DNA of 64,000 nucleotides from Methylobacterium sp. Leaf118 (lineage in GTDB: Bacteria > Pseudomonadota > Alphaproteobacteria > Rhizobiales > Beijerinckiaceae), in contig NZ_CAKLBV010000023.1 of the NCBI RefSeq assembly GCF_920984675.1, positions 1-64,000 on the forward strand, given 5' to 3'. Both the position numbers and the translations under genes were made by a program. Shown in pieces: positions 1-3,831 of this stretch (positions are counted from its first letter, which is position 1; every line of letters starts with the position of its first letter). The notes under the pieces are model-generated. The model was not told the DNA's origin and did not search any database. It saw only the letters and a program-made list of their open reading frames with translations.

Positions 1-142
1 AGGTGAGGCGGTGCGTGCCGTGGACGAGGGCGATGCGGTCGCCGTCCGCCGCGGCCTGGGCCGAGACCAGGGCCGAGGCCGGCACGAACGGGCGTGCCGG
101 CGCGGCGGCCGCCGTGCTGATCGTCCTGACTGCCCTGTTCAT
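1..142 (-). CDS. N-terminus of a probable NRPS / AMP-binding synthetase (partial, runs off the window)
   Basis: Only the first 47 codons lie in the window, read leftward from an ATG at 142. After about 20 variable residues the peptide runs FVPASALVSAQAAADGDR then IALVHGTHRLT, which resembles the opening of an adenylation domain (the usual pattern is '...aDriALVhgdrrLTYaEL'). The A-domain-like start follows almost immediately, so no condensation domain precedes it. It diverges from a PvdE-like cyclic peptide exporter, and both promoters carry iron-starvation boxes, so a peptide siderophore synthetase is the best reading. A stand-alone acyl-AMP ligase remains possible because the catalytic motifs are outside the window. 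Confidence 0.6.
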   Translation of the reverse strand, partial: MNRAVRTISTAAAAPARPFVPASALVSAQAAADGDRIALVHGTHRLT

Positions 143-194: not shown

Positions 195-218
195 ACGGAC
201 GGGCCTCGGCGAAATTTA
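195..218 (-). promoter_or_regulatory. Iron-starvation (PvdS-type) promoter box for the synthetase
   Basis: On the minus strand TAAAT (218-214) is followed after exactly 16 bases by CGT (197-195). TAAAT-N16/17-CGT is the published IS-box recognised by the ECF sigma factor PvdS. The box is about 53 bp upstream of the ATG at 142. A PvdS-like sigma gene lies 2 kb away. Confidence 0.8.
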
Positions 219-289
219 GAGGCCCCGCCCGAATCGGAGCGGCGTTCGGATAACGAGCTCCCGGCGAGCGGGAGTTTTGCGAGGACCTC

Positions 290-313
290 TAAATCTCGTC
301 CCGCCCCCCGCGT
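290..313 (+). promoter_or_regulatory. Iron-starvation (PvdS-type) promoter box for the exporter
   Basis: TAAAT (290-294), 16 bases, CGT (311-313): an exact match to the PvdS IS-box, facing the ABC exporter that starts at 406. The flanks (GGGAGTTTT about 10 bp upstream, CTC directly before TAAAT) recur at the box at 2872-2895, so the similarity extends beyond the core. Confidence 0.8.
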
Positions 314-405
314 CCTCGAAGGCGAGACCGGCGCGGTCCGACGAGGCGGAAGGCCGCTTCGTCGAGAGACGGCGCGACGATCGAGATCTGGACTCGGAGC
401 GGCGC

Positions 406-2076
406 ATGGATCCCGACCCCCCGGACGCCGACCCGCGCGGGAGCGTGCTCCTTCGCATCCTGGCGCAATGCCCGCGTCGGCGCCTCGCTTGGGCGCTCGG
501 CGCGAGCCTCGTGGCGGCGGCGGCCGGCATCGGCATGGTGGCCGCGGTCAACGAGGGGCTGTCCGGGCGCCACGATCCCCGCTGGCTCACCCTGGGCTTC
601 GCCGCCGCGGCGCTCGCCGGGCTCGGCGGCCGGATCGCCGGCGGGCTCCTCTTCGCGCGGCTCGGCGAGGGCGTCCTCCTCGACATGCGCCGCTCCCTGG
701 CGGCGCGGGTGGCCGCGGCGGAGTTCGCCCGGGTCGAGCGGCTCGGCGCCGCGCGGGTGCAGTCGGTGATGACCGACGACGCCGCCCGCGTCGCCGATTT
801 CCTCGTCGCCGTCCCGAACCTCGTCATGAACGCCACGATCGTGTCGGGATGCCTCGCCTATCTCGCCTGGACCTCGCTCGCCGCCTTCGCCCTCGCGCTG
901 GCGACGATCCTCGGCGGCTCGCTGATCTTCGCCCTGGGCCATGCCCGCGCCCTGAAGGAACTCGACCGGGCCGGCACGGCGCAGGATGCGCTGTTCGGGC
1001 ATTTCGACGGGCTGTTCTCGGGCGCCAAGGAGCTGAAGCTCAACCGCGACCGGGCCGATTCCTTCCTGCGCCACTCCCTGGACGACAGCATCGCCTCGGT
1101 GCGGGAACACCGCCTGCGGGGCTTGCGCATCTACGTCGTCGCGGCGGGCGCCGCCCTGTTCATGGTCCACGCCCTGATCGGGGCCCTGGCCTTCGGGGGC
1201 CTCTCCGGGGCCGGATCGATCGTGGTGTTCCTCTACCTGATGATGCCCCTCGACGCGCTCCTCAACACCCTGCCCAACGCCCAGCAGGCGCGGGTCTCGA
1301 TGATGCGGATCGACCGGCTGATGGCGGCGGTCGCGGCGCCGGAGCCCGTCGTCGCCCGGGGCCCCGCTTCGGGGTTCCGCGAGCTGCGCCTCGCCGGCGT
1401 GCGCCACCGCTATTACCGGGAGGCCGAGGATGGGATGTTCGAACTCGGGCCGATCGACCTTGCCCTCCGCCCCGGCGAGATCGTCATCCTGATCGGCGGG
1501 AACGGCAGCGGCAAGACCACGCTCGCCAAGGTGCTGACGGGGCTCTACCGGCCGGAATCCGGCACGATCACCCTCGACGGCACGCCGGTGACCGATGCCG
1601 ACCGCGACCGGCAGCGCCGGCTGTTCGCGGCCGTCTTCTCCGACTTCCACCTGTTCCCGACGCTGCACGGCCTCGGCGGGTCGGAGGCGGCGGCGGGCGC
1701 CCTCGACGGAGCCGCCAACGCGCTGATCGCCAAGCTCGAACTCGCCCACAAGGTGTCGGTCACGGGCGGCCGGCTCTCGACGCGGGCGCTCTCCCAGGGG
1801 CAGCGCAAGCGTCTCGCCCTCGTGGTCGCCTTTTTGGAAGACCGGCCGTTCTACCTGTTCGACGAATGGGCCGCCGACCAAGACCCGCTCTTCCGCGAGG
1901 TGTTCTACCGGAGGCTGCTGCCGGAGCTGCGGGCCCGCGGCAAGGCCGTGCTCGCGATCTCCCACGACGACCGCTACTTCGACGTGGCCGACCGCCTGCT
2001 GAAGCTGGAGAGCGGCGCCCTCGTCGAGGTTGGCGCCGCGCCCGCCGCCGCGCCCGCCGCCCAGGCGCACGCGTGA
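406..2076 (+). CDS. Cyclic peptide/siderophore ABC exporter, PvdE-like (fused TMD-NBD)
   Basis: A 556-residue half-transporter. Hydrophobic membrane segments fill residues 15-290 and an ATPase domain follows from about 335. The Walker A region reads GGNGSGKTT, followed by the signature-like LSQGQRKRLA, Walker B FYLFDEWAADQDP and switch His in ISHDDRYF. The LFDEWAADQDP form of Walker B is typical of the cyclic peptide exporter family (SyrD/PvdE), which exports peptide siderophores to the periplasm. ATG 406 was chosen because GGAGC precedes it; an upstream TTG at 277 would place the IS-box promoter inside the gene. The last 15 residues are Ala/Pro-rich and variable. It is divergent from the synthetase and just upstream of the convergent sigma factor. 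Confidence 0.85.
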   Translation: MDPDPPDADPRGSVLLRILAQCPRRRLAWALGASLVAAAAGIGMVAAVNEGLSGRHDPRWLTLGFAAAALAGLGGRIAGGLLFARLGEGVLLDMRRSLAARVAAAEFARVERLGAARVQSVMTDDAARVADFLVAVPNLVMNATIVSGCLAYLAWTSLAAFALALATILGGSLIFALGHARALKELDRAGTAQDALFGHFDGLFSGAKELKLNRDRADSFLRHSLDDSIASVREHRLRGLRIYVVAAGAALFMVHALIGALAFGGLSGAGSIVVFLYLMMPLDALLNTLPNAQQARVSMMRIDRLMAAVAAPEPVVARGPASGFRELRLAGVRHRYYREAEDGMFELGPIDLALRPGEIVILIGGNGSGKTTLAKVLTGLYRPESGTITLDGTPVTDADRDRQRRLFAAVFSDFHLFPTLHGLGGSEAAAGALDGAANALIAKLELAHKVSVTGGRLSTRALSQGQRKRLALVVAFLEDRPFYLFDEWAADQDPLFREVFYRRLLPELRARGKAVLAISHDDRYFDVADRLLKLESGALVEVGAAPAAAPAAQAHA

Positions 2077-2183
2077 TCTCGAGCGCGGGATCCCTTTCAA
2101 CCCGGGCTCATACGAAATCCGGTTGATCCCTTCGGGATGGCAGATTTGGGCTTCGCTCAAACGCCGCGCGGGCTTGCCTGATC

Positions 2184-2212
2184 CGGGCTCCGCTTTGATC
2201 AAGTGGAGCCCG
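2184..2212. terminator. Hairpin between convergent exporter and sigma genes
   Basis: CGGGCTCC (2184-2191) pairs with GGAGCCCG (2205-2212), and the stem continues inward as CTT/AAG. It lies between two convergent stop codons (2076 and 2215). There is no strong T-tract, so termination is inferred from position and stem strength. Confidence 0.5.
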
Positions 2213-2214
2213 TA

Positions 2215-2730
2215 TCAGGAGGCGGCGGCGCGGCAGAGGGCGGTGGCGTCGCGGATCATGAAGTTGACGAGCGTCGGCGACACGCCGGCCCGCGCCGCGA
2301 TGTCCTTCTGCGGCACGCCGTCGATGCGGTGGGACAGGAAGGCCTCGCGGGTGCGGGCCGGCGCCTCGTCCAGCGCCGCGATCGCCCGGTGCAGGGTCTG
2401 GCGGGCCTCCAGCCGGCGCAAGGGGCAGTCGCAGGGCGCGGGCACCGCGTCGCCGGCTTCCTCCGGGGCGCTGCGACGGCACTCGCGGCCCGTCTGGCGC
2501 ACCGCGTCGATGGCGGCGTTGTGGACCATGCGGCGCAGGAAGCCCGCCGCGTCGGCGACCTCGGCGGCGACGCCGTTCTGGCAGACCTTCAGGCAGACAT
2601 CCTGCACCACGTCCTCGGCCCGCGCGCCGCAGCGCACGACCCGCCGCGCCGTCTCGACCAGCTGGGGGCGATGGCGCAGCAACTCCACCAGGAGCGGATC
2701 CGCTCCCCGGTCGTTCTCTCTCCTCGGCAT
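2215..2730 (-). CDS. pvdS: ECF sigma factor, PvdS-like iron-starvation sigma
   Basis: 171 residues. Region 2 includes AEDVVQDVCLKV and FLRRMVHNAAIDAVR. Region 4 contains GVPQKDIAARAGVSPTLVNF followed by MIRDA, which closely matches what I recall of Pseudomonas PvdS (GVPQKDIA..LGVSPTLVNF..RDA). PvdS directs RNA polymerase to siderophore promoters under iron limitation. ATG 2730 was chosen for its AGGA ribosome site and because the frame further upstream overlaps an IS-box. I see no IS-box for this gene, so its own control is presumably an iron repressor such as Fur, RirA or Irr. No anti-sigma gene is adjacent. Confidence 0.85.
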   Translation of the reverse strand: MPRRENDRGADPLLVELLRHRPQLVETARRVVRCGARAEDVVQDVCLKVCQNGVAAEVADAAGFLRRMVHNAAIDAVRQTGRECRRSAPEEAGDAVPAPCDCPLRRLEARQTLHRAIAALDEAPARTREAFLSHRIDGVPQKDIAARAGVSPTLVNFMIRDATALCRAAAS

Positions 2731-2871
2731 GGCGTTCCTGTCCTTGGGGCGAACCGGCCGCGCGAGGATCGGCACCGGACAGGACGGCACGGGGGCTTCG
2801 CGGGCATCGCAGGGAAGCATCGGCCGCGCTGTCGCATCGGCACCGAACATCGGGAGTTTTCGGAAAAACTC

Positions 2872-2895
2872 TAAATCTTCGGCCGGACGCAGCGT
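2872..2895 (+). promoter_or_regulatory. Iron-starvation (PvdS-type) promoter box for the GNAT gene
   Basis: TAAAT (2872-2876), 16 bases, CGT (2893-2895): the third exact IS-box. It shares the GGGAGTTTT...CTCTAAATCT context with the box at 290. It points at the acetyltransferase gene and lies in the leader region of the divergent sigma gene. Confidence 0.8.
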
Positions 2896-3024
2896 CTTGG
2901 CTGTAAGTCGAGACATAGCGCCGGGGCTGGTGTTGATCAATGATAGCTCGCAGATGTGAATGTAGCCTGGAATTATAATAAACTCATCTTTGATTGGAAT
3001 AAGCATAAACTGTCTGAGTTCGCC

Positions 3025-3831
3025 GTGCCGGACAACGCCTTAGCCTCCCCTGCGCCCGTGCCGTCGGCGGAGAGCGCAGACCGCCTCCTGCCGTCGCTGC
3101 TCGCGGCCCATGCCCGGGTGCAGGCCGGCTGCTACGTGTCGGGGGTCGAGGCCGGGCCTGGGGGCGGGCAATGGCTGTGGTCGCGCCACCTCGCCGAATT
3201 CGGCCTCAACATGAGCGTCGGCGTGCGCGACGGCGCCTGGATCCGGGCGGAGGCGGCGCGGCGGGGCCGGGCTCCGGTGGCGCTCGCCGCCGATATGGGG
3301 GAGGCCCGTGACCTCTGCCTCGCCCTCGGGGCGGCCCCGGTCGCGGCGGTGGCCTGGATGGTCCGCGACCTCGCCCCGGCGGAGGCGCGGACGGCGACGG
3401 AGGGGGGGCTCACGGTCTCGGAGCGGCCCGCTCCGGATGCGGCCTTTCTCGGGGTGATGGCGCGGCAATCCGACAATCCGGCGGTCAACGCGGCGACGAT
3501 GGAGGGCTACGGCCCGGCCCTGCGCGCGGCCACGGCCGGTCCCGGCATCCGGGTGCGCCACCTGACGCTGTGGGAGGGGAACGCGCCCGTCGCCTGCGCC
3601 TCCCTCCATGCGGAGGCGGCCTGGGCCGGCCTCTACAACGTCGCGGTCGCGGCCCCGCATCAGCGCCGGGGCCTCGGCCGCCGCATCACGGCCCAGGCGA
3701 TCGCAGCGGCGGCGGCGCTCGGCTGCGCCGGCCTGTTCCTGCAATGCGTCCCCAGCGGGCCGGTCGAGCGCCTCTATGCCGGCCTCGGCTTTCGCCGGGT
3801 GGCGCGCCCGCTCCTGCTCGCCCTGCGGTAG
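3025..3831 (+). CDS. GNAT-family N-acetyltransferase in the siderophore locus
   Basis: 268 residues from GTG 3025. A conserved GNAT acetyl-CoA fold occupies the C-terminal half: LYNVAVAAPHQRRGLGRRI supplies motif A with the RRGLGRR phosphate loop, and VERLYAGLGFRRV forms motif B. The N-terminal half is a divergent GNAT-like or substrate domain. An IS-box 130 bp upstream puts it under the sigma factor. Such enzymes acylate siderophore building blocks or modify the product, but the substrate cannot be read here. An alternative GTG at 2956 adds 23 AT-rich residues that look non-coding; neither start has a strong ribosome site. Confidence 0.75.
   Translation: MPDNALASPAPVPSAESADRLLPSLLAAHARVQAGCYVSGVEAGPGGGQWLWSRHLAEFGLNMSVGVRDGAWIRAEAARRGRAPVALAADMGEARDLCLALGAAPVAAVAWMVRDLAPAEARTATEGGLTVSERPAPDAAFLGVMARQSDNPAVNAATMEGYGPALRAATAGPGIRVRHLTLWEGNAPVACASLHAEAAWAGLYNVAVAAPHQRRGLGRRITAQAIAAAAALGCAGLFLQCVPSGPVERLYAGLGFRRVARPLLLALR

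Follow-up and report, generated by a model that had tools for sequence, protein, structure and literature searches.

A PvdS/OrbS-type sigma factor and iron-starvation promoter boxes at a probable malleobactin-type siderophore locus of Methylobacterium sp. Leaf118

The first 64,000 nucleotides of contig NZ_CAKLBV010000023.1 (C23) of Methylobacterium sp. Leaf118, here called the window, very likely hold the control and export end of a hydroxamate siderophore system of the malleobactin/ornibactin type, governed by an extracytoplasmic function (ECF) sigma factor of the PvdS/OrbS type. This reading draws on what can be seen directly, namely the promoter boxes, the class of the sigma factor, the gene content, the conservation of boxes together with their genes, and the domain order of the peptide synthetase in a sister genome; binding of the sigma factor to the boxes, its response to metal, and the nature of the product would follow from these. 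The window is the left end of its contig in a draft genome of 5.06 Mb in 146 contigs, has a GC content of 0.71, and carries the features below, where NRPS stands for nonribosomal peptide synthetase, IS for iron starvation, and G045, G046, and G101 for three sister species.

1..142, minus strand: first NRPS gene, first 47 codons (start of adenylation domain A1); frame from ATG 142, truncated by the contig end
195..218, minus strand: IS box 1, TAAAT-N16-CGT, predicted promoter of the NRPS gene or genes; exact match, kept in G045, G046, and G101
290..313, plus strand: IS box 2, TAAAT-N16-CGT, predicted promoter of the exporter gene; exact match, kept in G045, G046, and G101
406..2076, plus strand: cyclic-peptide export ATP-binding cassette transporter in the role of PvdE/OrbE; TIGR01194 at 401.8 bits, cut-off 286.2
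2215..2730, minus strand: ECF sigma factor of PvdS/OrbS type (iron-starvation sigma); Sigma70_r2 and r4_2, start at ATG 2730 by homology
2872..2895, plus strand: IS box 3, toward the GNAT gene; exact match, fits the extended motif
2956..3831, plus strand: GNAT acyltransferase; PF00583, start uncertain (GTG 2956 or ~3025)

The boxes follow the pattern TAAAT-N16-CGT published as the IS box of Pseudomonas (PMC2235872; papers are cited here and below for those of their passages that were available). A preliminary description of this DNA had reported three exact boxes in a window where TAAAT is very rare, and both statements hold: three matches lie at the places listed against 0.07 expected, a number reached in none of 100 shuffles, and TAAAT occurs only six times on the two strands together, three of them inside the boxes. 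At spacings from N10 to N22 other than N16 the window gives a single match, at N12, which is box 1 read through its CGTCCGT end; an automatic check flagged boxes 2 and 3 as lying inside open frames, the frames in question being those of the exporter and the sigma factor extended upstream. Across 31 stretches totaling 936 kb (22 loci from the genus and 4 plasmid loci picked by their sigma gene, and 5 stretches of the same genome) there are 31 matches at N16, one at N15, and none at N17, with none for the reversed control at N16; five of the 31 (the three window boxes and one each on contigs C48 and C18) were known beforehand, and 6 of the 11 matches forming a peak at N12 are N16 boxes that end in CGTCCGT or CGTGCGT.

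Bases that were not part of the search pattern are fixed as well: in 30 boxes at cluster genes, C follows CGT (30/30), C or T precedes TAAAT (30/30), and C or T follows TAAAT (30/30), although related species are counted separately and these are not 30 independent events. Five of the 35 boxes found had been dropped beforehand as not at cluster genes (those of G077, G007, and G018 before the gene for a protein of ~70 amino acids, one at position 1921 of L084, and C18:14179), and 4 of the remaining 30 come from two stretches picked for a box pair. In intergenic alignments CTAAAT and CGTCC or CGTC are conserved and the spacers vary, and the NRPS and exporter boxes stay with their genes in the Leaf118 genome and in all three sister species.

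The sigma gene sits between the exporter and GNAT genes, and boxes 1, 2, and 3 face, respectively, the start of the NRPS gene, the exporter gene, and the GNAT gene; the exporter (TIGR01194 above its cut-off) and the GNAT (PF00583) are as first described. So is the sigma factor, which carries regions 2 and 4 (Pfam) and, in region 4.2, the PvdS motif GVSPTLVNF; against PRK07037 it scores 145.5 bits, below the family cut-off of 190. Homologs were found in 38 of 111 genomes of the genus at E 1e-12, and the 30 best loci, among them that of the window, were examined. In G045 the gene order reads GNAT, sigma, exporter, box, box, NRPS, ornithine monooxygenase, TonB receptor; the two boxes occupy the positions that they have in the window, the sigma factor is 82% identical to that of the window, and the GNAT ortholog beside it is 69.8% identical. 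The exporter is 80-81% identical in all three sisters. Taken by themselves, the 47 residues at the contig end match no Pfam or NCBIfam model, and they were identified through G045, where the orthologous start (59.6% identity over 47 amino acids) begins a 622-residue adenylation-carrier (A-T) protein; the earlier assignment of positions 1-142 to a synthetase is thereby probably correct.

A fourth box lies at C48:3243-3266, just before an mbtH-tauD-fecE-fecCD operon, and is adjoined by a divergent SIP-type reductase gene. It is kept in 4 of 4 genomes, and in the three sisters it stands on a contig other than that of the sigma gene; TauD itself was found in 4 of 6 genomes searched (Leaf118 and, at 89-90% identity, the three sisters) and not in G009 or G055. 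The regulon had been called complete and self-contained, which this operon on another contig contradicts. Contigs C22, C23, and C48 carry the malleobactin/ornibactin-type gene set of ornithine N5-monooxygenase, TauD alpha-ketoglutarate hydroxylase, MbtH, exporter, receptor, FecCD/FecE, and SIP reductase, and what survives of the preliminary view is a predicted PvdS-type iron-starvation regulon beside its sigma factor, with NRPS, exporter, and hydroxy-ornithine tailoring.

We propose that i) scarcity of a metal, most likely iron, would cause the sigma factor to be made and active; ii) with core RNA polymerase, it would read promoters of the form YTAAATY-N15-CGTC (Y is C or T); iii) it would start the NRPS-ornithine monooxygenase-TonB receptor genes and the exporter gene and, probably, the GNAT gene; iv) it would start the mbtH-tauD-fecE-fecCD operon in trans, on the other contig; and v) the resulting peptide would probably consist of acylated hydroxy-ornithine, D-beta-hydroxy-aspartate, glycine (not serine), and a second acylated hydroxy-ornithine, together with a group added by the terminal condensation domain.

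The layout is closest to that of OrbS/MbaF in Burkholderia, the group in which peptide siderophores of this kind have chiefly been investigated, and Leaf118 adds a Methylobacterium member to a known theme. In B. cenocepacia, OrbS has the three promoters PorbE, PorbH, and PorbI, OrbE being a probable exporter and OrbI an NRPS (PMC9023288), and no neighbor of OrbS is described, in the passages available, as coding for an anti-sigma factor (PMC8908255); in B. xenovorans, promoters of this type precede mbaG, mbaN, mbaA, and mbaP, and their consensus includes CTAAA and CGTC (PMC4786211). As far as those passages go, the OrbS/ornibactin and MbaS (MbaF)/malleobactin systems share with Leaf118 a sigma factor without adjoining anti-sigma factor, promoters before exporter, NRPS, and orbH/mbaG, the CTAAA...CGTC motif, ornithine and aspartate hydroxylases, and, as read in the sister G045, four adenylation domains and an extra condensation domain in the last module. 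They differ in that the host here is an alphaproteobacterium, mbtH-tauD are on another contig, module 3 of G045 does not read as serine, A1 and A4 are nearly identical there, a GNAT gene lies beside the sigma gene, and the cysteines of the sigma factor are in its linker rather than in a C-terminal tail. If orbH and mbaG are genes for MbtH-type proteins and mbaN is an exporter gene, as we take them to be, the Methylobacterium boxes would precede the same three kinds of operon as the OrbS/MbaF promoters.

With PvdS and pyoverdine in Pseudomonas, Leaf118 shares the IS box (PMC2235872), GVSPTLVNF in region 4.2, and the type of monooxygenase and exporter; the sigma factor is 38-45% identical to the closer Pseudomonas sigmas, which are unannotated and are taken for PvdS, and the differences are that no FpvR/FpvA-type surface signaling was seen, that the regulon is small, and that the peptide is another. 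PvdS-like control had been presented as new outside pseudomonads, but RpoI of the vicibactin (vbs) system in Rhizobium leguminosarum is an older alphaproteobacterial case (PMC1557990). There, too, a PvdS-like sigma factor lies beside a hydroxamate NRPS cluster, with one N16 box before an acetyltransferase gene (locus L086); in contrast to Leaf118, the sigma taken for RpoI is 33.5% identical and on another branch, the NRPS is single and smaller, and the product is different. Methylosinus sp. C49 carries a cluster on its plasmid pMSC49a (L084) that unites receptor, monooxygenase, GNAT, mbtH, hydrolase, tauD, sigma, exporter, and two NRPS genes, with boxes before mbtH and before the exporter as in Methylobacterium; unlike in Leaf118 everything is in one place, and the sigma factor (47.6% identical) has only one cysteine of the linker motif C-x-C-P described below.

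To call the siderophore undescribed was an overstatement, since antiSMASH has already reported malleobactin-like clusters in Methylobacterium (PMC9301485); these clusters, from the same genus, are probably of the same type, and that text describes no sigma factor or box, the word "sigma" being absent from it. In the open-access literature we found no description of this sigma factor, its boxes, its regulon, or the structure of its product in Methylobacterium. The present reading would give the genus an explicit promoter code, YTAAATY-N15-CGTC, with its sigma factor for a peptide siderophore, and would place in the alphaproteobacteria an OrbS-type circuit whose targets are not confined to a single locus.

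In this genus the uptake of iron is bound up with that of lanthanides, and the peptide might instead be a lanthanophore and the regulon one for lanthanide acquisition, the sigma factor answering lanthanide shortage or a lanthanide-loaded carrier. Methylobacterium extorquens AM1 has a siderophore-like lanthanophore, with a promoter that responds to neodymium and iron (PMC11317620), and a siderophore is of importance to M. aquaticum 22A growing on methanol (PMC9301485). Nevertheless, we think a lanthanide regulon unlikely: sigma factor, boxes, and genes all match those of iron systems, the known lanthanophore is made without an NRPS and comes with a sigma/anti-sigma pair (PMC11317620), and C23 carries no FecR-family gene.

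Conserved cysteines of the sigma factor may bear on what the switch senses. In OrbS a C-terminal cysteine cluster blocks the protein with Fe(II) (PMC9023288); no such cluster follows region 4.2 in the Leaf118 protein, which ends ALCRAAAS and has one boundary cysteine. Instead, the linker between regions 2 and 4 carries C-x-C-P, a motif seen in 19 of 20 Methylobacterium rows of this sigma type (18 of 19 without a genome counted twice), the exception having H-x-C-P, and in none of 9 other alpha- and betaproteobacterial rows or of 57 rows from Pseudomonas and elsewhere. It is conceivable, and we put it forward only tentatively, that the sigma factor of this Methylobacterium group itself senses intracellular metal, possibly beyond iron in methylotrophs that use lanthanides, through linker cysteines C118, C134, and C136 (P0003) and C200 of region 4.2, in place of an anti-sigma factor; the proposed sensor would then lie between regions 2 and 4 rather than at the C-terminus as in OrbS.

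A second sigma group of the genus (L034-L044; G029, G034, G042, G043, G071, and others; 11 rows), ~40% identical, shows VCGLV where PTLVNF would stand and, just after region 4.2, a tail rich in cysteine (e.g. RRCAACPAR), at a position like that of the OrbS sensor; these cysteines were read from the alignment, and the automatic tail pattern did not score them. At the four loci of this group that were read widely (G029, G034, G042, and G071) ornithine monooxygenase and NRPS matches lie nearby, and no TAAAT-N15-17-CGT box was found.

Because the assembly stops at base 1 of the window (C23:1), with only 47 synthetase residues present, the locus to the left was read from relatives. The left end of contig C22 matches the right end of the G045 locus (terminal condensation domain 82%, ornithine N-monooxygenase 78%, and siderophore receptor 74% identical), and since both contig ends match this one locus, C23 and C22 very probably flank a single NRPS locus; to judge by this homology, the NRPS and hydroxyornithine tailoring predicted leftward of the window are indeed there. 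None of the 146 contigs contains the middle of the NRPS, which we take to have been lost in assembly rather than from the genome. The first and fourth adenylation domains of G045, belonging to the two copies of an A-T unit, are 91.6% identical; C23 stops within the first A copy and C22 begins after the second, so that both contigs end near the edges of the repeated unit, and the sister drafts G046 and G101 likewise hold the NRPS middle on separate contigs.

A broken relic, the stretch between C23 and C22 being truly lost in this strain, would explain why the assembly holds no condensation domains besides the terminal one on C22 and an unrelated one on C61, and why the epimerization-condensation (E-C) part finds only C22, at 32% identity. 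We regard such a loss as improbable: both NRPS ends are open frames, the right end with terminal condensation domain, monooxygenase, and receptor is intact, and the position of the breaks at the repeated unit, together with the split sister assemblies, argues for a gap. Two other NRPS pieces at contig ends, C61:3-2966 (C-A, condensation and adenylation) and C18:2-2236 (A-T-thioesterase), were considered as parts of the cluster and rejected, their best NCBIfam matches including MxcG and EntF, below cut-offs. The C61 piece finds only 37-40% identity in G055, G101, G045, and G046, and nothing at E 1e-100 in G009; its adenylation code equals that of G045 A3, yet the two domains share 50% identity. 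Used as query against plasmids, the terminal condensation domain gave only matches below 38% identity among the best 25 of 310 records.

The G045 synthetase occupies three frames with the domains A-T, C-A-T-T-T-E-C-A-T, and C-A-T-C (E by core motif), which is the malleobactin order; its second module has three tandem peptidyl carrier protein domains with the same core motif (L046 6827-7350). Specificity codes placed by motif anchors are DGEGTGGITK for both A1 and A4, DLTKIGHVGK for A2, and DILQLGVIWK for A3 (position 278 of A1 was misread by the script and taken from the alignment, and the final K, supplied by the script, is also present in the alignment); the A2 and A3 codes are identical in G046 and G101, making A3 the same in 3 of 3 sisters. 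For B. xenovorans LB400 malleobactin the published codes are DVETLGGISK for A1, DLTKVGHVGK for A2 (beta-hydroxy-aspartate), DVWHVSLIDK for A3 (serine), and DGEYTGGITK for A4 (formyl-hydroxy-ornithine), and the same pathway has an alpha-ketoglutarate hydroxylase, an ornithine monooxygenase, and a module 4 condensation domain said to add putrescine (PMC4786211). Both G045 A1 and A4 agree with LB400 A4 in 9 of 10 positions, as does A2 with LB400 A2, and the best Protein Data Bank match of the monooxygenase is 3s5w, an L-ornithine 5-monooxygenase (394.5 bits). Domain order, codes, and monooxygenase together indicate that the product should be a malleobactin-type peptide with a different third residue. 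The GNAT presumably acylates hydroxy-ornithine and thus suggests that the product is acylated.

Could the sigma factor instead belong to a FecI/FecR-type surface-signaling circuit, the boxes not being its promoters? All of these are ECF sigmas of iron systems, and the genome has three FecR-family genes. None of the three is on C23, however (they are on C6, C24, and C42; other anti-sigma families were not searched), and the receptor, scanned at E 1e-5, shows no domain besides plug and barrel and so no signaling domain, which together make surface signaling of the pyoverdine type unlikely. In our tree, which includes no named PvdS, OrbS, or FecI sequence, the sigma factor stands apart from the rows taken for FecI-like (100/99), the deep order having support of only 61/73.

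The boxes, moreover, track the type of sigma factor and not the contig. In G009 the sigma gene and one box (before a PF13523 acyltransferase gene) lie at 4.48 Mb, and a divergent box pair at 1.42 Mb, 3.06 Mb away on the same 4.79-Mb contig; in G008 the sigma gene, with one box before an acyltransferase gene, and the divergent box pair are on different contigs. In both genomes the pair precedes ornithine monooxygenase and mbtH-NRPS genes (the scan for protein families covered G009), so that box and sigma type are associated without being linked. Among Pseudomonas loci, which are unannotated and which we split by rank, N16 boxes occur at 36 of 58 loci with the closer sigmas (38 matches, against 2-6 at each of the spacings N13-N15 and N17-N19) and at 0 of 12 loci with the more distant ones, the distant group being that taken for FecI-like; they occur also at 3 of 3 betaproteobacterial loci. 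Taken together, these points leave a FecI/FecR circuit highly improbable.

A scan of the whole genome, recommended by the preliminary description, found 8 exact boxes against 4 for the reversed pattern, and an exact match alone is thus no proof; the likely real ones are told apart by position and flanks. The four matches at siderophore genes are the only ones with C on both sides, and the other four, one of which (on C41) is deep within a coding frame, are not at such genes. That the window boxes are chance matches in AT-richer spots, as the four reversed matches might suggest, is scarcely credible given 0.07 expected, exact spacing, fixed flanks, and conservation despite varying spacers.

We wish to stress the observations that weigh against a siderophore regulon of this kind: i) besides the missing NRPS middle and the modest excess of 8 exact matches over 4, exact boxes are only slightly in surplus over the reversed control in all 111 genomes (1289 to 1223), with 266 to 227 in 19 genomes with a sigma factor of this group, 219 to 193 in 19 with only a distant sigma, and 804 to 803 in 73 without a sigma match; ii) the three sister stretches show no box in the interval from sigma to GNAT gene or ahead of the sigma gene; iii) despite a sigma factor of this group, the stretches examined from G022, G004, G010, and G057 show no box (G010 and G057 being cut by contig ends), and G018 has only one, away from cluster genes; iv) among four other alphaproteobacterial loci a single one has N16 boxes, and L085 from Azospirillum has no TAAAT/TAAAA-N15-17-CGT box in 40 kb; v) the reversed control of the Pseudomonas set is not clean, with 8 matches at N16 and up to 39 at N19; vi) upstream of the window's sigma gene there is no TGA-N9-TCA, and no regulator site was established there (Fur and Irr boxes were not modeled); and vii) LB400's own A1 code differs from that of G045, module 3 (DILQLGVIWK) does not read as the serine code of malleobactin and is here taken for a glycine code. 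A surplus of ~2 boxes per genome with this sigma group fits a small regulon, yet is modest against the noise; a large genome-wide regulon was rejected, the surplus being nil where no sigma factor was found. Box 3 was likewise rejected as a conserved GNAT promoter, having no counterpart in the sister stretches, and the uncertain GNAT start places it anywhere from 60 to ~129 bases before the gene.

An AT-rich stretch lies upstream of the sigma gene in the window and in the three sisters, with one TGA-N9-TCA in G045. GNAT matches (39-47% identical) are also found near NRPS matches in G055, G057, G029, G071, G042, and G034. The N16 box ~9 bases before the gene for the ~70-amino acid protein (MDLSEKQRFLLL...) recurs in three species (L051 17685-17708, L053 18394-18417, L071 9772-9795) and may represent a further target or simple descent. 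At the 12 Pseudomonas-set loci with distant sigmas (L154-L170) there are six TAAAT-N18-CGT matches in 5 loci against one for the reversed control, which may be chance or another spacing used by that sigma type. L085, on plasmid p3 of Azospirillum brasilense, has a related sigma gene with FecR and receptor neighbors and an exporter.

Finally, a dispersed 126-bp repeat lies at window positions 2095-2220, downstream of the exporter gene, and is present in at least 40 near-full-length copies of 93-100% identity (40 of 123 candidates scored), one of which separates mbtH from tauD on C48 (2857-2968). The final ~44 bases of the repeat are partly self-complementary, giving opposite-strand matches at the same places, as in a repetitive extragenic palindrome (REP)- or miniature inverted-repeat transposable element (MITE)-like element.

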